Shown here piece after piece: positions 50,859 through 64,000 of a DNA stretch of 64,000 nucleotides. This DNA comes from Entophlyctis helioformis (lineage: Eukaryota > Chytridiomycota > Chytridiomycetes > Chytridiales > Chytriomycetaceae): positions 244,412 through 308,411 of the forward strand of contig JAHLKH010000003.1 of assembly GCA_025526915.1 (NCBI GenBank), given 5' to 3'. Position 1 is the first letter of the stretch. Each line of letters opens with the position of its first letter. A model generated the notes under the pieces. It saw only the letters and a list, made by a program, of their open reading frames with translations. It was not told where the DNA came from and ran no database searches. The translations under genes and the position numbers were made by a program.

Positions 50859-54016
<3,158 letters not shown>

Positions 54017-54372
54017 TCTCCCTCCAGCTGATATCCCGGCAGCTGCTCCCTTCCTTTTTCGCCACCCATGTCTACCGCCATTTATCCCCTCCGCCTTACT
54101 CCCGTTCCATGGTGCCTTTTATCCGTCTGTCTCTCCTGTTTCGCTTCGAAATGCACGTTGCGTTCGACTATCTTTTCTCGGTTACTTTTCTTGCATATTG
54201 TTTGTCGCGTCGCAAAGAGTCGCGTCTCAAAGAGTCGCGTCTCAAAGAGTCGCGTCGCAAAGAGTCGCGTCGCAAAGAGTCGCGTCGCAAACAGCTGCAT
54301 CGGCAAACCGTGGATGCGAGTCTCGTCACACCCTCTCTTCCGAAGCCCAGGCTTACCGCAATCGCAATAATC
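54017..54372. other. Leader and promoter of the coiled-coil protein gene
   Basis: 356 bp between the calcineurin stop and the next start codon on the same strand. It is pyrimidine-rich up to about 54180 and then holds a 15-bp repeat array (54204-54295). An upstream ATG at 54109 is in frame with the downstream gene but would read through the array (KESRLKESR repeats); less likely to be the start. Confidence 0.6.
54204..54295. repeat. 15-bp tandem repeat GTCGCGTC(G/T)CAAAGA
   Basis: Six near-perfect copies ending about 77 bp upstream of the start codon at 54373. The position immediately upstream suggests a 5'-UTR or binding-site array. Confidence 0.92.
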
Positions 54373-56724
54373 ATGTCCGTGGTGCAGAACAGCCTAGACG
54401 GGTACACGGCTGTTGCAGGTGGCTTCAAGGGCAATGACTCGTCGGCGGCTGCAGTCGCACCTGCACAAGATGCGCTTCGTCCGCGAACGTCGCATGTTCA
54501 CCCTGCTTTTGCTGACCCATCCGGCCCGTCGCCGGATCCTGCGAGCAGCCAGAATCAGCCAGTACAGCAGTCATCACTCCTTTCCACGGCTTGGGCTCCT
54601 GCAGGTGCTCTTGCTGCAAACGCCACAGAAGGTCAGGCCAGCGTCGCCAGCAACAGCAACGCAGGTGCAAACAGCCCGTCTCTGCCACCGCTCGATCGCA
54701 AGCCTCGTCGCGGCCAGTCGTTTGGCGCCAGTCCGTCACCGACACCCTCCCGCTCGTCTGCAATCTTTGCCACGCCTGCGTTGCTGGCTCCGGTCTCTGC
54801 GGATCCGCAGACGTCCCAAGCCAAGCAGGCCGACAAGGAAATCAAGGATCCATTTGCTGACCAGCCGCCGTCGCCCGATGGGTCGAGAGTCTCGCCGACA
54901 GATGCCGCACCAGCCGTTGTGCTCCATCCTGATCACACCCAGCACGCATGGGCCGATCCGCAGCCAGCCAGCAGCCAACACGAGCACGAGCAGCAGGCTG
55001 CACGCAGTCTGCAGCAAGTTGTTGTCCAGGTTGTTCCGCAAACAAGCGACGTGGATCTTGAAGCGCAGAGCGGCCGCAACTCCATTCTCGCGCCCCTGCC
55101 AACAGCGGCCGCTCGACCTGCAGTAGCGACATCGGGCTGGATCCAACCAGGCGACTCTGTGCATGCCTCTGACGACCAAGACCAGCCCGATACGGCTCCA
55201 AGTGCACACATTGCACAATCAAATGCACCGGCATCGCCAGCATCGTCGTCATCGGGCCAACCACCAGCGCTGCCTTCCCGCACAGCCAAGCATGGAGACC
55301 GCATCAAAAGCTCTGCCATGCGTGCCGTCCAAGGCAATCTCTCGGCCGACGACATCCTCGTCGAGGAAAAGGAAAACAACGAGTATGTCGAGGTCAATGT
55401 GGGCAACCGACGCCGCATGTCGTCCAAGGACTTTTCGCGTCGCAAGAGCGTCATGGCGTTTATCAAGAAGGCCATGAACACGGCTGTGCACGGCTCGGCT
55501 TTGCGCAACGACGAGCGCGCAGGGTCTAGCGGGTCACTCAAGAGTGATGAAGAGGCTGCTGAAGACCATGACACGTACGCAGCTGGCGGCAGTGAGGCGG
55601 GCTCGCCGTCAAGGGGCGGCCCTTCATCAGCAGGATCGGCTCATGCAGCGGCTATGGCGGCGGCAGCTGCAACGTCTGCCATGCTGTCGACTGGCGATCA
55701 GACTCTATCCTCGCGTGCCGAAGCACCCAAGAAGCGAAAGTCGATCTTTGCAGCACTTGTTGGCACCACCATGTCGGGATCAAGAGAAAACGTTCGCAGC
55801 ATGTCCATCTCTGGACCGTCGCACCTCATGCCAACGACGACCCCGCTCACATCATCTGCAAGTCGGCTGGCGCCTGCCACGGATACAGCCACATCGCCCG
55901 ACTCGCTGTCGCCGTTGATCCCATCGGCTGCTGCCGCGTCTGCTGCAGCTGCTGCATCGGCTGCTGCACTTGCACCTGCATTTCCTCAGTCATCAGCTGC
56001 GTCGCCGTCGGCTGGAATATCCGGCCCACCACCACCACCACCATCTGCATCCACGCGTCCATTATCCATGCAGCTCAGCGGTCCCTCTGCCGCAATGCTT
56101 GCCATGGCTGCCATCGCAGCCGCGTCATCCCAACAGCAACAGCAGCAGCAAACATCAGCAAGCAACCGGATCTCACTGCAGGATTTCCCGTCGTCTCGTC
56201 CACGCACTCGCCAGTCATCCATCTCCACCTCTGGCTCGGGCGCTGGCAGTCGGCCACCTGCGATGAAGCGCCACGGCTCAGACGTCACGTCCAGCACCGT
56301 TGCACAAAACACCTCCGTCATCCAGCCGAGTCTCCAGGGAGTCCCACCCCCACCACCGCACCACGCTGTATCCGCAGGAAGCACCACCGATCCTGCCACG
56401 TCTGGACAGCAGACCGCCCACGACTCGCCCACACCGGTTCGCGTCGAAAAGCTGCAGAGGCGGCGGTCCACCAAGTCGGGCGATGTGGTCATGAAACGCG
56501 TCGAGCGGCTCGAGGAGACGGTGCGCTTGATGCAAGAGCAGGTCGATGGGCTTATCAAGTCACAGGAAGAGACTCTGAAGATGCTGCACGAAGAGCGTGC
56601 GGCTCGGTCCAAGCTCGAGCGCGAGGTGGATGCATTGCGCATGCGGTCGTCGCAAGTCTCGAGCCAATCTGCACAGCAAGAACAGCAAGAACAGCAACAA
56701 CCAGAGCAGCACGTTGACGAGTAG
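54373..56724 (+). CDS. Low-complexity protein with C-terminal coiled coil, family not recognised
   Basis: Uninterrupted 783-codon frame from ATG 54373 (MSVVQNSLDGYTAVAGG). Most is Ser/Pro/Ala-rich and predicted disordered. A basic, ordered-looking segment lies at about residues 330-375 (DDILVEEKENNEYVEVNVGN, then RRRMSSKDFSRRKSVMAFIK and KAMNTAVHG), and a coiled coil at about 695-760 (MKRVERLEETVRLMQEQVDG, then LIKSQEETLKMLHEERAARS), with a Gln/Glu tail. The RRMSS and RRKS sites resemble basophilic kinase targets, which fits a signalling scaffold; that is only inference. It follows calcineurin A by 356 bp on the same strand. Confidence 0.7.
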   Translation: MSVVQNSLDGYTAVAGGFKGNDSSAAAVAPAQDALRPRTSHVHPAFADPSGPSPDPASSQNQPVQQSSLLSTAWAPAGALAANATEGQASVASNSNAGANSPSLPPLDRKPRRGQSFGASPSPTPSRSSAIFATPALLAPVSADPQTSQAKQADKEIKDPFADQPPSPDGSRVSPTDAAPAVVLHPDHTQHAWADPQPASSQHEHEQQAARSLQQVVVQVVPQTSDVDLEAQSGRNSILAPLPTAAARPAVATSGWIQPGDSVHASDDQDQPDTAPSAHIAQSNAPASPASSSSGQPPALPSRTAKHGDRIKSSAMRAVQGNLSADDILVEEKENNEYVEVNVGNRRRMSSKDFSRRKSVMAFIKKAMNTAVHGSALRNDERAGSSGSLKSDEEAAEDHDTYAAGGSEAGSPSRGGPSSAGSAHAAAMAAAAATSAMLSTGDQTLSSRAEAPKKRKSIFAALVGTTMSGSRENVRSMSISGPSHLMPTTTPLTSSASRLAPATDTATSPDSLSPLIPSAAAASAAAAASAAALAPAFPQSSAASPSAGISGPPPPPPSASTRPLSMQLSGPSAAMLAMAAIAAASSQQQQQQQTSASNRISLQDFPSSRPRTRQSSISTSGSGAGSRPPAMKRHGSDVTSSTVAQNTSVIQPSLQGVPPPPPHHAVSAGSTTDPATSGQQTAHDSPTPVRVEKLQRRRSTKSGDVVMKRVERLEETVRLMQEQVDGLIKSQEETLKMLHEERAARSKLEREVDALRMRSSQVSSQSAQQEQQEQQQPEQHVDE

Positions 56725-56859: not shown

Positions 56860-58746
56860 TCATTCATCAATCGGAAACGACAGACAGAACTTGTCCTTGT
56901 CCGTCAGCACCAGACTCCGGCCGTCGGGGTTCCATTCGAGGCCCGTGATCTGAAAGTCCATGGCAGGCACTTCAATCGACTCGCAGCCCAGGTCGGCCTG
57001 CCAGAAATAGATGAATCCGGTGCCGCAGCAAAAGGCCAGACGGTCGGGCTGGCGTGGGTTCCACCGCACTTGGCGGATCGGTGTCTGCTGCATGATGAGT
57101 GCCTTTTGATGCAGACTGGACACGTCCCAGATCCAGAGACACGTGGGCATGTTGTCTGGGCGGGGACGTGGATTAGCGATGCGTGTGAACGTGATGGATC
57201 GGGCAGGCTGGAGTGACGTACCATTGCGCGTTGCAAGGTACCGGCCTGTGCAGCTAAACTCGGCGACACCGACCCCCATGCGCGGATTGGCCTTTTCCGG
57301 ATCGGCTCTGACCTGCGGGATGGTTACAGGAGGCTGGATGGCCTTGTCTGTCTCGACATTGCGGCACGTCAGACATCAGGCTTCATGCCGAGACTTGGCG
57401 CATGGCTTACACAACAGCTTGGGTCTGACTATGGATGTGGCGGTCCATGCTGCAACATCGCGCTCGTCGGAAATGTTGACTTCCTTATAGACAGTCTGTT
57501 TGTCCACACACTTGTCAGCAGTCTGCACGGATGGGCTGCATGTCATGTCGCTTACAATATCCCGAAAAGGAAGATTGGTAGGATGCGTCAGCTCAATAAG
57601 TGGCTTCCACGTGTAGTAGTTGAGCAGACGACACTGTCCAATGCAACGGCTGTCAGAAATGCCATACAGCGAGTGCACGCATGTATGCATGCATGCCACG
57701 AAGCAGACCTTTTGATCGTAGCTGCCTACTGCCAGAAACTGTCCAGATGGCGACCAGCGCACAGTCTTGATGCCGAGACCCATGTCGTATGCAGAGTAGT
57801 TGTGCACGAGACGGCCGTCGGGGTGGTAGATAAACACGTTGTACTGTTGCATGCAACTGCTCGTTAGCGATGGACAGCGACGGTTTGTGGGCAGTCTGTG
57901 CAAGCAGAAGCCAACCTCCAGACACGGCTCCCAGACCGCAATGAAGCGGCCATCTGGCGACCACGCGATGCCGTCCAGATCCTTGGTCGCGACTGGCCAT
58001 CTCTGTTTGCGACCCGTCAGCCAGCCAGACCCATGCTTGAGCGCAGCAAGCAATGCAAGCAATGCATACCTTGAGCAGAGTCCAGTCTTCGCATTCGTAG
58101 ATGCTGACAAAGTCCTTGGCGTCTGTTCGTTCTGCCAATGCAAAGTACTTGCCGTCGTTTCTGAAGCCGAATCCTGTCCGCATGAATGCAAGCAGAGTGA
58201 GCGTGGCTGCTGCTGCTGCATGGATGCACGTACACTCTGCACGATGGCATACCTCTGTCTGAGAACTTTGGGTACTGGATGTATGTTGCGTCCTTTGTGC
58301 ACAGCGACCATATGGTGATGCGCAGCTGTGGCGGAATGGCGTAAGCGAACCATGCAAGTCAGACAGACAGAGGCAGGCAGACAGGCAGCGCAGCACAACC
58401 GCACCTGAAAGTCCGAGAAGCTCATGAGATGCCTGCCGTCGGGCGTCCAGCGCACGGCCACGCAGCCGGCGATACCCTCGTCTATCTGCGCCGTCCACGA
58501 CTCGTCCGACAGCGAAAACACCTGGATGGTCGCCAGGCGGAACGACGCACAGAACAGGTACTGGCCGTCGGCCGACCAGCCAAAGTCCTGGATGTTGTCG
58601 ATGCACTTGAACAGGGCAACGAGCTGCAGAGTCTCTGTGCTGCGCACAAACAGCCGGTGCTCGAGCACAATGGCCAGGTGGTCGCCGTCTGGAGAGAAGC
58701 GGCACAGCGAGTTGCTGAGCTTGAACACGTCTGTGAAATCGGCCAT
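56860..58746 (-). CDS. WRAP73: WRAP73/WDR8 WD-repeat protein
   Basis: Nine exons, 58746-58405, 58325-58253, 58173-58070, 58002-57916, 57843-57709, 57633-57556, 57522-57411, 57347-57222 and 57155-56860; 450 residues, near the family length of 460. Recognisable stretches are FTDVFKLSNSLCRFSPDG, VRWTPDGRHLMSFSDFQ, LRITIWSLCTKDATYIQYPK, DLDGIAWSPDGRFIAVWEP, YSAYDMGLGIKTVRWSPSGQ, FLAVGSYDQK and RYLATRNDNMP, each in family order. WDR8/WRAP73 works at the centrosome or spindle pole body with a SSX2IP/Msd1-type partner in microtubule anchoring. All junctions keep the frame. The acceptor of exon 7 could instead lie at 57514. Confidence 0.93.
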
Positions 58747-58992
58747 GGTGGAGGGGTGGGCAATAGGGCGAGGGAATGCCGGCAGTTGCCGGCAAAATGC
58801 CCGACATCCAAACAATTACCAAGAATCATTGAATTAAATTGGACGCGAGAGGCGTCGAATGTAAGGCAAGCATAACACACGATGGAAGGTTCGAGTCAGC
58901 AACGAGCATGCGACGACAGACAGGCGAGGCACACCAGCGAGATGCTTACCTTCGTAAAGTGACCCTATTGGTCGATCGGGAGGTGCCCCGAT

Positions 58993-61900
58993 TCATATTG
59001 TGCTGGAAGTCACAGCACGTGGAGTTGCATGTGCCTTGCTGGCTTGTGACCCGCGGACAGACCGTGTCCGTGGTGGAGGCGGCAGGACGATGGGCGGATC
59101 GGGTGGTCTTGGAGGCCGCTGGTTGACAGGCAGCTCAGGTACTGGAAGCTGCTGGACGACAGGCTGACTGGCCTTTGTGTGCGTCAAGTAGAGCGGCCGC
59201 TCTCCATCGAGCAAATGCCCCAGTGCGACCATTCCGATGTTGGTGGCTCCAAGCACGTCTCGGTGGTAGACGGCCTTGCAGTCTGTGCACTCGTAGCGTC
59301 GCAGGTTGGTGCGGTTCTTGTATGGGATCCGCTGCTTGCACTGCGGGCACATCTGGCTGGTCAGGTTCTCGTTGCAGCGGTAGATCTGTGTGTGTGAGTG
59401 CATGATCGTGTGGTCAGTTGGTGCACAGATGGATAGATGGATGACATCAGACGCACATAGGCATATCCAGACGACCGCAGATGCCTGATGAGAAACTTCT
59501 CAAACACTGCATGCCGGCCACCCTCGCCAGTAAAGTCGATGCCCAATGCCCAGACAACTGGGATGTTGTCCTCTGCCAACTTTTTTGGATCGAAGGGCAG
59601 GCCTTGAGACGCAGGAGATGCGCGCTTGCCAGTGGTCGATCCTGCCAGCTTCATGATGCCCTCAAGAGCATGTCCGCGAAAAGACATGCTGTTGCTGCGC
59701 ATGGAAAAACGCTCGGCCTTGACCTTCTGTGGAATGCCATGCCATGCCACTCAATGCAATCAGCAGGCGATCAAGCAGCATGGCGATCATGCCGATATGC
59801 ATTCAGAAGCAGAGAAAACATACCTTTGCATTCAGGAATGTCGAGCAGTACGCCAAGCAGCGAAGATCCCAAAACGCTCGCTCACCTGCCGAGACTGTCG
59901 GATCGGCATGCTTTGCCATCTTGAAGGCAATCGCCTCATGGATGTCGGCTGCCTTGGCATATCGGCCATTGAACCTGGCACAAGAGACAGGCGCTGTGAG
60001 TTGATCTACCAAGAGTGCACAGAGTCATTGCATACATACCATCGCAGAAGTTCGCGCTCAGCTTGAAATAAGCCAGAGGAGAGCACATAGTTGGACTCGT
60101 GCGTGTATGTGCCGGTATTGACGTTGAGCAGCATGCTGGACGCGCCAAACAGGTACCGCTGGCCCCAGTCTAGACTGACAACGCGAACAGTCTCATAGCC
60201 CTTTTCGGCGAGCAGCTTGTTGGCATCAGCAACATCAGGTAGTCGCTGGGATGCATTGAAGTTGCGCTTGGCCTGTCATGCCATGGCATGAGTGAGGGAT
60301 GTGCAATGCATGTGCACCAATGTGTGAGTTTAGCATGCAAGTGACATACAAGGTTTGGCACTTTTGGCTTGGCAGCTGTGGATGGCATGTCAGTTGGTGT
60401 GGACAGCAAGTACGCGTCTGGATTGGCACAGCAACTCACATTCGCCGTTGAGGTAATCAGGCACACAATCAGCCTCATTGGCAAGACTGGGAAGCTCGCA
60501 TGAAGACGCCGTGTCGGGACCTGCGAAGCAAGGCGGCGGTTAGAATTGATGTGTGCACCAAAGCATCCAAGCACGGCACATACTGCAAGGCGACTCTGGA
60601 CGGTCTGTGCGATAATCGCGAACCAACTGGCCGACGCTGTATCCGTTCGAGATGATGCTACTCATCCGTGTCCGTTTGGTTGGTCTCGCTGGGGGTAGAG
60701 CATCAACCGCAGCCTGGATGAAGTCCTTGCGCTCCTTGCCAACCAGACTCTGCTTGTTGGCCGCTCGCGTCGCCTTGGCTTTGGCCACTTTCTTTGCCTT
60801 GGTGTTGGCTGCCTCCATTTCCGCTTCGGCTTCTGCCGGCGTTTGATACCGGCCTTTCTTGGGGCGGAGGCCGGGAAGCAGGACGTCCATGACGCAATTC
60901 TCGCGACTGAGCTGAATGCCTTCTTGATCTCGCTGTCGGTTGACTTGAGTTCAACTTTTTCGAGCCAGGCTCTTTGAGAAAGGTGGATTGTTAGTATCAA
61001 ATCATAAAAAGATGGCACAAACAGGCAGTGCAACTTACTGATCGCAGCAAGTAGCTCCTTTCGCAGTGCTTGCAAAGCAGGATCCTGCCCCTTGCTGTCG
61101 CGCTCCTTCTTTGTCCCCATCACAGACCAAAAGAGTGTCCTCTCTGTGATGAGAACGAAAGGGTCGCAGCTTGCCGGCTGCGGGCAAAGCTTGATGCTCT
61201 GTCTCCCAGCGAGATCGCGCAGCGCATGGAACTTGCCGGGATGCGACAGCGACTCACTGAGCACAATCGCAGCGAGCTCGTCTAGCTCTGGAGGTAGCAC
61301 GACAACGGCCTTGCCCTCTGTGGCTGAGGAAGAGCTGGATGCTGCGGCCTTCTTGCTGCGTGGCTTCTTTGGTGCGTCCTTGCCCTCCGTGGCTGGCGAT
61401 GGGCTCGGCGCCGCGCTCTCGGTGGTGGCAGCCTTCCCGACACATGGCTTCTTGGCATCCTTGGCACGGCGGCCTTAGCAACGCGTGGCTTCTTGGCTAC
61501 GCCGCCCTTGTCGGTGATTGAAGTGCTGGACGCGGTCCGCTGTGGGTTGGCGCGGGTCCTTGCCGACGCGTACCTTCTTGGCTACGCCGCCCTTGTCGGT
61601 GATTGAAGTGCTGGACGCGGTCCGCTTGTGGGTTGGCACGGCGTCCTCAGTGGCAGCCTTCCCAACGCGTGGCTTCTTGGTGGCTATGGCAGCAGCAAGC
61701 CTGGCGTCCCTGGTGGCTTTGGCAGCTGCATCCCTGACGGCTTTGGCAGCTGCACGCTCGGCGTCCCTGGCGGCTTTGGTAGCTGCACGCTCAGCGTCCC
61801 TGGCGGCTTTGGCAGCTGCACGCTCGGCGTCCTTGGCAGCTTTGGCAGCTGCGCGCTTGGCGTCCCTGACGGCTTTGGCAGCTGCGCGCTTGGCGTCCCT

Positions 61901-63341
61901 GGCGGCGTTGGCAGCTACACGCTTGGGATCCTTGGCGTCTGCGGCGTCCTTGGCAGCTTTGGCAGCAGCGCGCTTGGCGGCGTTGGCAGCAGCACGCTTG
62001 GCGGTCTCAGCATCCCTGGCTTTCTTGATCAGGTACGTAGTCCACGCCGTCGCTTGCTTGGGAGTTGAACCGCGCACAAGCTTGAGGCATGCTGCAAACA
62101 CCAGGTCGGACTGGCTTCCAATGTAGTGCTGCGCCAGCATGGCACACACACTCTTGGCGAGGTTGCTGAAGATATCATTCGCAGCTTCCGCGCAGAGGCT
62201 GCCGTCAAGCCTGTCTGGTAGAGCCGGCTCCTGCGCGACGGCTGGCGGCATTTTGGGCTGTGGTATGCCTTTCTTGATCGCATTGGCGTGCACCATGCCT
62301 CGCGTCCATGACCGGTGCATCATCAGCTGCATGGCCGTGACGAGCCATGCGTTGATCGTGCTCATATTGAGACCCGGCTGGGCCATCTGCTTGCCACTGA
62401 AAATGTACGACAGGTGGCGCAGCATACAGGCCATGGACGTCTCGCCGCCAGAAGCGCTGCTGATGATTTCCGTGAGCAGCTGGTTCGCTGTTGGCACCGC
62501 CGGTGCTGCTCCTGGCTGCTCAGACTCGTCGGCGTCCTCGGCGTCCTCAGACTCGTCGGCGTCCTCAGACTCGTCGGCGTCCTCATACTCGTCGGCGTCC
62601 TCGCTGTCCTTTGACTTCTTGACCCTCTCGTGCAGACATATCTCGAGTCTCGTGCCCGTGGCGAGTGGCACCGGATCGCCAAAGCGAGGATCGCTGCTCT
62701 CTGGGTTGTACAAACTTGAGCCATACATGATCCACGCGTCGATGCCCTTTCTGAGCGTAAATCGGCCGGACAGGAAATCCTCCCTTGACACGCCACCGGG
62801 GCGGTTGGTGCTGTCTGAGTTGCTGGGATCGTCGAGGGCTCGGATATCATCGTTGCTCAAGAAGCAGAACCCGGTCTGCTTTTCTTGGAACCACTGGTAA
62901 ACGTGGTATTTTGGCGGGAGGGGCGCGTCTTGAACGATCTCGAGGAGCTCTTCAAGGACGGCACCAATGACGATAAGGCCGGCCTGCCGAGTACCGATGG
63001 TGAACGAGTACACACGGGTAAACTTGTCCTCGACAATCAGATCCCGCGTCCATGTCTCTGGCGTCTTCCTGCCATGAAGGCCATGGAATCTGACGCGCAA
63101 TGGATCACTCGAGGTAAGGTCCTGCACACCGCGCCAAGCTGCCAGTCAGTACATGCATCGCCATGCATGCAGGCAGAATGGCGATCCTAAATCGTACCTC
63201 GTATAGCACTCTCATGCCACAACGATCAGCCGCGTCCACAGCGGGTCGATCGGTCGCGTCCACAGCGGGTAGATTGGTTGCGCCTCCTTTTGATTGCCGC
63301 ACCTTGTCGCCGATTGTAACGAGCTGCAATGTGTCTCTCAT
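58993..63341 (-). CDS. Fanzor (eukaryotic TnpB-like RNA-guided nuclease) with long N-terminal extension
   Basis: Spliced minus-strand gene: 63341-63198, 63121-61039, about 60988-60584, 60520-60440, 60375-60350, 60272-60040, 59974-59824, 59726-59457 and 59385-58993. The C-terminal half has the Fanzor/TnpB layout: RuvC-I with SLDWGQRYLFGAS, a region around WALGIDFTGEGG (RuvC-II candidate Glu), a zinc finger CPQCKQ...YECTDC and RuvC-III HRDVLGATNIGMVALG. Fanzors are known RNA-guided DNA nucleases of eukaryotes, including one from the chytrid Spizellomyces. The N-terminal part (63341-61300) has MRDTLQLVTIGDKVRQ, an acidic DEDA repeat and a long KAAKDA repeat; whether it belongs to the same protein is inference. 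Single-base deletions near 61540, 61468 and 60915 break the frame. All RuvC and zinc-finger residues named are intact. Confidence 0.8.
61489..61637. repeat. 63-bp direct duplication inside the Fanzor gene
   Basis: Two copies, 61489-61551 and 61574-61637, encode TASSTSITDKGGVAKK. They differ by one missing base at 61540-61541 (cgctgtggg against cgcttgtggg), which throws the downstream copy out of frame. Confidence 0.9.
61660..62020 (-). repeat. Degenerate 27- to 36-bp repeats encoding K(A)AAKA(A/V)(K/R)DA units
   Basis: About ten copies of a unit reading RAAAKAAKDAE/RAAAKAVRDAK on the minus strand, predicted as a long charged single helix within the Fanzor N-terminal extension. Confidence 0.85.
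62520..62605 (-). repeat. Acidic repeat (DADESE)n in the Fanzor extension
   Basis: Tandem tcctcagactcgtcggcg units on the plus strand encode about five DADESED-type units on the minus strand. Confidence 0.85.
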
Positions 63342-63434
63342 TGTGCACTGATGCCGCGTGCCAATGGCTGCATGGGCATTATTGGAACGCGCCTTCTGCC
63401 AGCGGTCGATGCACCAGACTTGCCCCAGCTGTCG

Positions 63435-63524
63435 TCTTGTGCATCCAACCGCAGGTACCCTCCATCTCCCCTGCCTGTCTCTGATACTGGTCTGACAATG
63501 AATATCTTGTGCATCCAACCGCAG
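63435..63524. repeat. Pair of 20-bp direct repeats upstream of the Fanzor start
   Basis: TCTTGTGCATCCAACCGCAG occurs at 63435-63454 and 63505-63524, exactly 70 bp apart, between the Fanzor start codon (63341) and the next gene (63593). Confidence 0.85.
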
Positions 63525-63592
63525 TACTTCCGTCTCCTCACACGACAGCTCTCATACAAGTAGTGACCGACACCCGACTGAGCAGCAACGCC

Positions 63593-64000
63593 ATGCCCTC
63601 TGGCGGCCCAGGCCAGCCAGGCGGCATCAACCAGCAGCAGCAGCTCACCACTGCCGCCACCAACAAACAGATCCAGCAGCTTCAGGCGACTGCCAGCAGC
63701 CTCCGGCAGGAGCTGTGCCTGGCCCGCCAGCAGCTGCGCACCACCAGACTCGACCATGACGACTGCCTGCTCGCCATCCAGCAGCTGACAGCCTGGCGCA
63801 CAGAGGCGTTTGCAGAGATGCACATCATCCGCCGCGCCTGCTTCAGCCCTCCAACGCCAACCGGCCGCCTCCGCTACGAGCAGGCTGCCGCGGCCTTGCG
63901 GGAGGGCGTGGCCAGGCTGGACAGCCTCCAGCTGGAGCGGCAGCAGCTCGAGCAGATGATCGGCGACCTGCGTGCAGCCATCCAGCACAAACAGGCCGCC
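63593..64000 (+). CDS. Coiled-coil protein, 5' end only
   Basis: Open frame from ATG 63593 (MPSGGPGQPGGINQQQQ) to the right edge without a stop, 136 codons. After a short Gly/Pro/Gln leader the sequence is strongly heptad-patterned (KQIQQLQATASSLRQEL, LRTTRLDHDDCLLAIQQL, LDSLQLERQQLEQMIGDL), predicting coiled coil, interrupted by CFSPPTPTGRLRYEQ. Family not recognised from this fragment. It is divergent from the Fanzor gene, with 252 bp between start codons. Confidence 0.6.
   Translation, partial: MPSGGPGQPGGINQQQQLTTAATNKQIQQLQATASSLRQELCLARQQLRTTRLDHDDCLLAIQQLTAWRTEAFAEMHIIRRACFSPPTPTGRLRYEQAAAALREGVARLDSLQLERQQLEQMIGDLRAAIQHKQAA

Follow-up and report, generated by a model that had tools for sequence, protein, structure and literature searches.

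What kind of locus is a Fanzor-like gene in a chytrid genome: a gene kept by the host, an intact mobile element or the remains of one, and does a guide RNA lie beside it? The question is raised by a 64,000-nt stretch of Entophlyctis helioformis DNA (GenBank assembly GCA_025526915.1, contig JAHLKH010000003.1, positions 244,412 to 308,411 of the forward strand). This whole stretch is called the window, and coordinates refer to it unless a contig or copy is named. The first-pass annotation, made from the letters of the sequence, had described an RNA-guided Fanzor nuclease gene on the minus strand at 58993-63341. On the evidence given below, the locus is very probably what remains of one copy, truncated at its 5' end and decayed, of a DNA transposon that is abundant in this genome and has terminal inverted repeats (TIRs). 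The transposon carries a TnpB/Fanzor-type nuclease and a candidate guide-RNA block.

The nuclease-coding half

The minus strand of 58993-60272 reads as the C-terminal half of a TnpB/Fanzor-type nuclease in four exons with GT-AG introns between them. After splicing, RuvC-I (SLDWGQRYLF), the zinc finger (CPQC...CTDC) and RuvC-III (HRDVLGATNI) follow one another in the kept order, as had been read from the sequence alone. The family named in the annotation was borne out by a profile search, in which Pfam TNB (PF07282) matched the RuvC half of the window copy with an E-value of 4.4e-11 and 43.2 bits (cut-off 26.3); the NCBIfam TnpB family gave E 1.4e-6 and 27.8 bits, below its cut-off of 100. The catalytic D-E-D residues of RuvC occur in order (D35, E224 and D261 in the numbering of the window RuvC half) and are invariant in six aligned copies. 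The glutamate is the alternative one (Ealt), six residues ahead of the first Cys of the zinc finger, and ENLTSQMCPQC was found in all 12 intact halves; this arrangement is typical of Fanzors (PMC10711439). The TNB domain, the Ealt arrangement and the D-E-D residues support a TnpB/Fanzor-type nuclease as the predicted product of 58993-60272 and, as the catalytic residues are present, it should work like a Fanzor.

The element and its exons in the window are as follows; L017 is one of the other copies described in the next section.

58751-63314, minus strand: Fanzor transposon remnant (alignment of shared sequence)
58993-59385, minus strand: last coding exon, with the alternative catalytic Glu (CNENLTS), zinc finger, RuvC-III, a proline-rich tail and the stop codon at 58993-58995 (sequence, Pfam TNB and splicing)
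59457-59726, minus strand: exon between RuvC-I and the zinc finger, ALGIDFTGEGG region (splicing across copies)
59824-59974, minus strand: exon between RuvC-I and the zinc finger (splicing across copies)
60040-60272, minus strand: RuvC-I exon, SLDWGQRY (splicing across copies)
60350-60375, minus strand: small exon, AKPKVPNL (by eye, by analogy with copy L017)
60440-60520, minus strand: small exon (by eye, by analogy with copy L017)
60584-60971, minus strand: exon LLPGL...KERKDF, frame broken (alignment of copies, limits set by eye)
61039-63111, minus strand: long N-terminal exon with charged and Ala-rich repeats (sequence, homologous exons in other copies)

When the N-terminal exon was modelled, its mean pLDDT (predicted local distance difference test) was 48.7, too low to interpret.

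Copies in the genome, decay of the window copy and selection

The genome of the fungus itself (29.6 Mb, 482 contigs) was searched for the TNB domain, and 150 of the 205 candidates obtained were scored. All of those listed were over the cut-off, and the count is a lower bound: at least 150 TNB matches, slightly more than the insertions they stand for because some contigs repeat one insertion (e.g. C67 and C297). Twenty other copies (L009-L028) were taken, mostly chosen for a long open frame around the match. Eighteen of these share aligned stretches of 1.6-2.9 kb with the window copy and are 72-80% identical to it there; for L010 and L013 the alignment covers only 459 and 269 nt.

The RuvC half is open over all four exons in 12 of the 21 copies, that of the window included, with D-W-G, ExxxxxxCxxC, the zinc finger and the final D kept in all 12, and given this number its openness is, on the sequences compared, not due to chance. 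Among the other nine, six have a premature stop or frame break as spliced, L015 was not spliced, and L010 and L013 lack these exons. In copy L017 the C-terminal 920 residues splice into an open frame; a protein database search with residues 330-830 of its spliced product found no match at E<=0.001 among 7989 scored candidates. The RuvC halves of L022, L026 and others appear to be mosaics of one another, which suggests recombination or gene conversion.

The window copy itself is broken in the part upstream of the RuvC half. Compared with nine other aligned copies, exon 60584-60971 has two separate 1-nt deletions, and an in-frame TAA lies at 61475-61477, inside the repeated stretch of the long exon 61039-63111. 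These changes break the frame, which makes the copy a pseudogene, open in its RuvC half, and not an intact gene. Nor could the proposed gene start near 63341 be upheld, since its ATG sits in another repeat (63315-64000) and the sequence common to the window copy and other copies begins at 63314. Judged from its sequence, the window copy is decayed and 5'-truncated, and the full protein would no longer be made. The interrupting repeat is as follows.

63315-64000, plus strand: LTR-like (long terminal repeat) element that interrupts the Fanzor element, with the contig ending inside it (comparison with copy L026)

It is complete in L026, which it also interrupts (672-2952 of the joined L026 stretch), and there it has 2.28 kb, terminal direct repeats of about 228 nt, TG...CA ends and an apparent 5-bp duplication. 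It has a single open frame of 694 residues, and no Pfam family was above cut-off in its window part (63315-64000).

The ratio of nonsynonymous to synonymous change (dN/dS) among the 12 open halves had a median of 0.52 (range 0.28-0.93, 66 pairs), and was 0.34-0.47 between the window copy and the 11 others; copies with a broken frame were excluded, which biases these values downwards. The ratios suggest that the protein mattered while the family spread. Together with the many introns, a ratio below one in the RuvC half is also what a host gene of Fanzor origin, domesticated for a new function, might show. Domestication is nevertheless highly improbable in view of the at least 150 TNB matches, the TIRs, the target-site duplications (TSDs) and the broken frame of the window copy. 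From the introns and the N-terminal extension, the first-pass annotation had supposed that the gene had long resided in its host or had been fused to a domain of host-like kind. This was not supported: the locus belongs to a multicopy mobile element, in which the long N-terminal part is common to other copies.

Ends, size and target duplications of the mobile unit

Left ends of the element read GGCCCGGTTCTCATACCATTACC, and right ends are the reverse complement of GGCCCGATATTCATACAATTACC. The joint TIR pattern was found at 178 places genome-wide with at most one mismatch, and the reversed pattern used as control at none. Searched separately, the two end types gave 68 left and 81 right ends, and 35 of the 68 left ends pair with a correctly oriented right end within 20 kb. 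These 35 paired intervals, which need not all be single elements, measure 7.2-9.8 kb in 23 cases and 11.6-15.9 kb in nine, at least one of which has a nested insertion (L026); the remaining three are short (0.99, 1.05 and 2.17 kb).

Flanks were read for 20 paired intervals: eight have an exact 8-bp TSD, three have one mismatch (two of these being a single insertion on two contigs) and nine have two or more mismatches. The first four bases of the target favour C-A-R-A in 27 left flanks, and in the same flanks, whose duplications were partly verified, no clear fixed motif resembling a target-adjacent motif (TAM) was seen left of the duplication. The mobile unit is a TIR transposon, mostly of 7.2-9.8 kb, with 8-bp target duplications. 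The transposon linkage expected by the first-pass annotation is supported by these TIRs and TSDs, and the further copies and ends that it proposed to search for were found in the genome.

A B-type right end, 48 nt longer, has 78 genome matches at no more than three mismatches (control 0), and the window copy is of this type. A B-type left TIR was not found: each of the seven B-type copies searched has the B end motif just once, at its right end, and no end was seen in the parts inspected on the left of L018, L027 and L024; the 78 matches in the genome were not checked individually.

Some arrangements of ends were recorded in addition. The three short intervals (C35:164492-165480, C436:7860-8911 and C199:20580-22748) look like internal-deletion derivatives, and those on C35 and C436 retain the TNB match, i.e. 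the zinc-finger exon and the 3' end. Stretches of about 5.4 kb at C294:14333-19760 and C407:6509-11948, perhaps one region on two contigs, lie between outward-facing left-type ends with T for G at base one. The two Fanzor insertions on C141 and C176 have flank sequence in common, in inverted order, as insertion into two copies of one repeat or recombination might produce.

The conserved 3' block as candidate guide RNA

The first-pass annotation had expected a guide RNA just 3' of the open reading frame (ORF), and a conserved block lies there. The place proposed for it, 58850-59100, was roughly right; the block is actually at 58751-58994.

58751-58994, minus strand: conserved 3' noncoding block up to the right end (B-type terminus), candidate guide (omega) RNA scaffold (copy alignments)
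58743-58750, minus strand: first 8 nt past the right end, expected copy of the target duplication, its partner lost (flank comparison)

A noncoding block of about 200 nt follows the stop codon directly in 19 of the 21 copies and stops sharply at the right end, beyond which the flank differs in each of the 19. Adding 80 further ends, selected by a match to the right end or to the block, gave 101 ends, of which 97 were readable (at least two pairs are assembly duplicates), and 57 blocks entered the alignment. In almost every one of these 57 copies, RNAalifold paired CCCGAU near the block start with the AUCGGG found in the right TIR, in agreement with the published view of the TIR as part of the Fanzor1 guide-RNA (reRNA) scaffold (PMC10711439). 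A third hairpin was extracted in 19 variants, one of them empty; several long variants outfold most shuffles and the window variant does not fold. If the block is a scaffold, the flank would supply the guide, which in the window would run 3' from 58750 (58743-58750 and beyond), as in SpuFz1, where a 75-nt scaffold is followed by a guide of 14-15 nt (PMC10432273). In the block alignments TG-creating changes are in excess, and in the larger set CA-creating changes too, the pattern that CpG decay would give.

The same block might be the transposase-binding terminal region plus 3' untranslated region (UTR), with no guide RNA, and the nuclease would then work otherwise or be inert. Conservation beside a TIR is expected of transposon ends, covariation gives the block no support as an RNA, and Rfam held nothing relevant for it. 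Against this, the left ends read have short tandem repeats after the TIR and not the block, and the position and sharp end of the block match the SpuFz1 guide RNA, although it is longer (PMC10432273). We consider a purely terminal region unlikely and prefer the guide-RNA scaffold.

Proposed mechanism and its weak points

In the preferred reading, the unit would move by cut and paste and leave 8-bp target duplications behind, as its observed anatomy indicates, and its multi-exon gene would encode the RuvC/zinc-finger nuclease predicted from domain and motifs. The block of about 200 nt may be transcribed with adjoining host DNA into an omega RNA, the guide being the host sequence just outside the element; this step is drawn from position, conservation and the published Fanzor1 guide RNAs. 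If it acts as TnpB and SpuFz1 do, the nuclease could then cut uninserted or vacated alleles of insertion sites, so that repair copies the element back, a step that would fit the high copy number.

Several results weigh against this reading. DPG at RuvC-I occurs 'near exclusively' in Fanzors (PMC10711439), and DWG stands in its place in all 18 copies whose RuvC-I exon was read (three of 21 were unread). A six-copy profile found no Fanzor or TnpB chain among solved structures, the nearest structure of the same kind being a designed RNA-guided nuclease at an E-value of only 0.71. RNAalifold found no compensatory base changes among the 57 blocks, and the structure is for this reason weakly supported; the window block folds merely 1.57 standard deviations below shuffles. 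The block is also longer than the 75-nt scaffold of SpuFz1 (PMC10432273), with omega-RNA length varying considerably between species (PMC11423790). Finally, no DDE transposase was found in the scanned parts of the element and no transposase was recognised there, and KDZ transposase remnants occur on contigs C334, C271 and C396. The annotated Fanzor gene stands as that of a TnpB/Fanzor-type nuclease. Because RuvC-I is without the DPG signature, the nuclease cannot be placed with confidence among canonical Fanzors; by its sequence it is a divergent relative.

One of the three KDZ contigs was read, and no TIR of the Fanzor element lies in the 8 kb around its remnant (C334:2001-10000). On C334 and C396, ends of the Fanzor element were noted about 8-10 kb from the KDZ remnants. 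A search for hAT gave no match, and its controls were silent as well.

A splice-like signature in the block

58945-58949, minus strand: splice-donor-like GTAAG in the block; the next AG is not reached until 58732 (sequence reading)

Of the 97 ends read, 95 keep AAG/GTRAG, position +3 being A or G, and TTGCTGAC lies about 50 nt after GTRAG. The consensus is free of AG over the 147 nt between GTRAG and the A-type end (P=0.00045 by base shuffling). AG-creating substitutions numbered four against 10.9 expected in 57 copies and three against 9.9 in 38 new copies; in all 94 copies they were five against 13.4 (z -2.95), the strongest depletion among the 16 dinucleotides. The 97 tails contain nine AGs in total, and six of these share a single position that follows the branch-like A by a few nt. 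Three coding exons used as controls (L009-L028 plus the window, 19-21 copies) had 10 AG-creating changes against 10.7, 19 against 10.9 and 13 against 14.2; as one of them reaches z +2.9, the z-scores are over-dispersed.

This signature is suggestive of a terminal intron with its acceptor in host DNA, or of selection against splicing of the guide RNA, and we regard this reading as rather unlikely. In the former case the guide RNA would lie in an intron whose donor (GTRAG), branch-point-like TGCTGAC and AG-free tract belong to the element, the acceptor AG lying in host DNA past the right end. Splicing, or its avoidance, might conceivably shape the guide RNA and fuse the mRNA to host sequence. 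The conserved donor, the replicated AG depletion, the undepleted control exons and the clustering of AGs near the branch-like A all speak for such an intron. Against it stand the over-dispersion and the shared ancestry of the copies, a distance from branch to element end that alone exceeds 100 nt, and a first flank AG often 2-5 nt out (median 5, n=59), too close to leave a guide if used. AG-free runs of at least 147 nt occur 13 times on both strands of the window, that of the block included; the B-type extension is undepleted (2 against 2.0, 42 copies), and the left end is partly AG-poor as well. AAGGT forms the foot of a predicted hairpin in some variants, and RNAalifold pairs it with an ACCU further downstream, so structure may account for its conservation. 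A terminal intron is a tentative and rather doubtful addition to the decayed transposon copy with its candidate guide-RNA block.

Exons upstream of the Fanzor part

In fuller copies the Fanzor part is preceded by a series of exons on its own strand. In L019 and L018, where these exons were read by hand, they contain HVD...IK..H..RAL, VCWCxxEADVCIAR, V(S/C)NDSDL and TD(F/Y), a motif order that we take to be that of XPG/FEN nucleases. The best Pfam family was XPG_I_2 (E 0.0038, 17.2 bits, below the cut-off of 24.2), and comparison with solved structures gave no XPG chain up to E 10; for these two reasons 'XPG-like' is used as a lead only. A unit of about 9 kb might encode a DWG-type Fanzor together with a flap nuclease like XPG/FEN, both on one strand and perhaps in one gene, with the guide RNA in a terminal half-intron that has its donor and branch point in the element and its acceptor in the host; as a whole we hold this to be improbable.

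Neighbouring genes

A WRAP73-like WD40 gene lies at 56860-58746 on the minus strand, the same strand as the Fanzor element, with 9qzc as a solved relative (E 8.8e-17). The right end of the Fanzor element is 4 nt before its ATG (58746-58744), and the element occupies the expected place of its 5' UTR. At 53986-56724 on the plus strand, an open frame of 912 codons has a low-complexity look and no Pfam match at E<=0.001.

Significance and comparison with known systems

How Fanzors benefit their transposons is an open question, and this genome is a natural experiment on it: copies are many, with clear ends and target duplications, a candidate guide block stands beside most of those read, and open as well as deleted derivatives are present. 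The flank of a copy would give its guide, with which empty sites can be compared. If confirmed, the splice donor and the avoidance of AG would tie guide-RNA production to the eukaryotic splicing machinery.

Fungal Fanzor transposons are known, including a Spizellomyces family with intact ORFs (PMC3627910, PMC10432273). In the mainly openly accessible literature searched, with Repbase outside its scope, no title or abstract described the present family, and we could not match its combination of 8-bp duplications, a size of 7-10 kb, DWG, XPG-like upstream exons and an AG-poor candidate guide-RNA block.

Among the systems compared, the amplified and diverged CMe-1A family of the red alga Cyanidioschyzon merolae is similar in having about 150 Fanzor copies, and unlike the present element in its size of about 3 kb, its lack of a TIR and its undetermined TSD (PMC3627910). 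ROr-4, PBl-3 and MCi-4 (MuDR-like, Fanzor1) are, like it, fungal TIR elements that carry a Fanzor and no transposase of their own; they have 9-bp TSDs and MuDR-like TIRs, as against 8-bp TSDs and GGCCCG TIRs here (PMC3627910). For the SfAV Fanzor1 element the TIR (and TSD) has been proposed to be in the guide-RNA scaffold, as the TIR may be here; that element is non-autonomous, comes from an insect virus, has two copies and was shown to express its guide RNA, whereas the present one is known from sequence alone (PMC10711439). SPu-1 of Spizellomyces punctatus, which carries the Fanzor1 protein SpuFz1, is likewise a fungal TIR transposon with a Fanzor ORF and many copies (PMC3627910, PMC10432273). 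Its noncoding RNA runs from the stop codon to the right inverted repeat and into the flank, a position like that of the candidate block. SPu-1 has about 2.1 kb, a single ORF, inverted repeats of 30-33 bp, a putative TA TSD, 42 loci with full or partial Fz genes and a 75-nt scaffold (PMC3627910, PMC10432273), whereas the present element mostly has 7.2-9.8 kb, many introns, TIRs of about 23 bp, 8-bp TSDs, at least 150 TNB matches, DWG, a block of about 200 nt and extra upstream exons.

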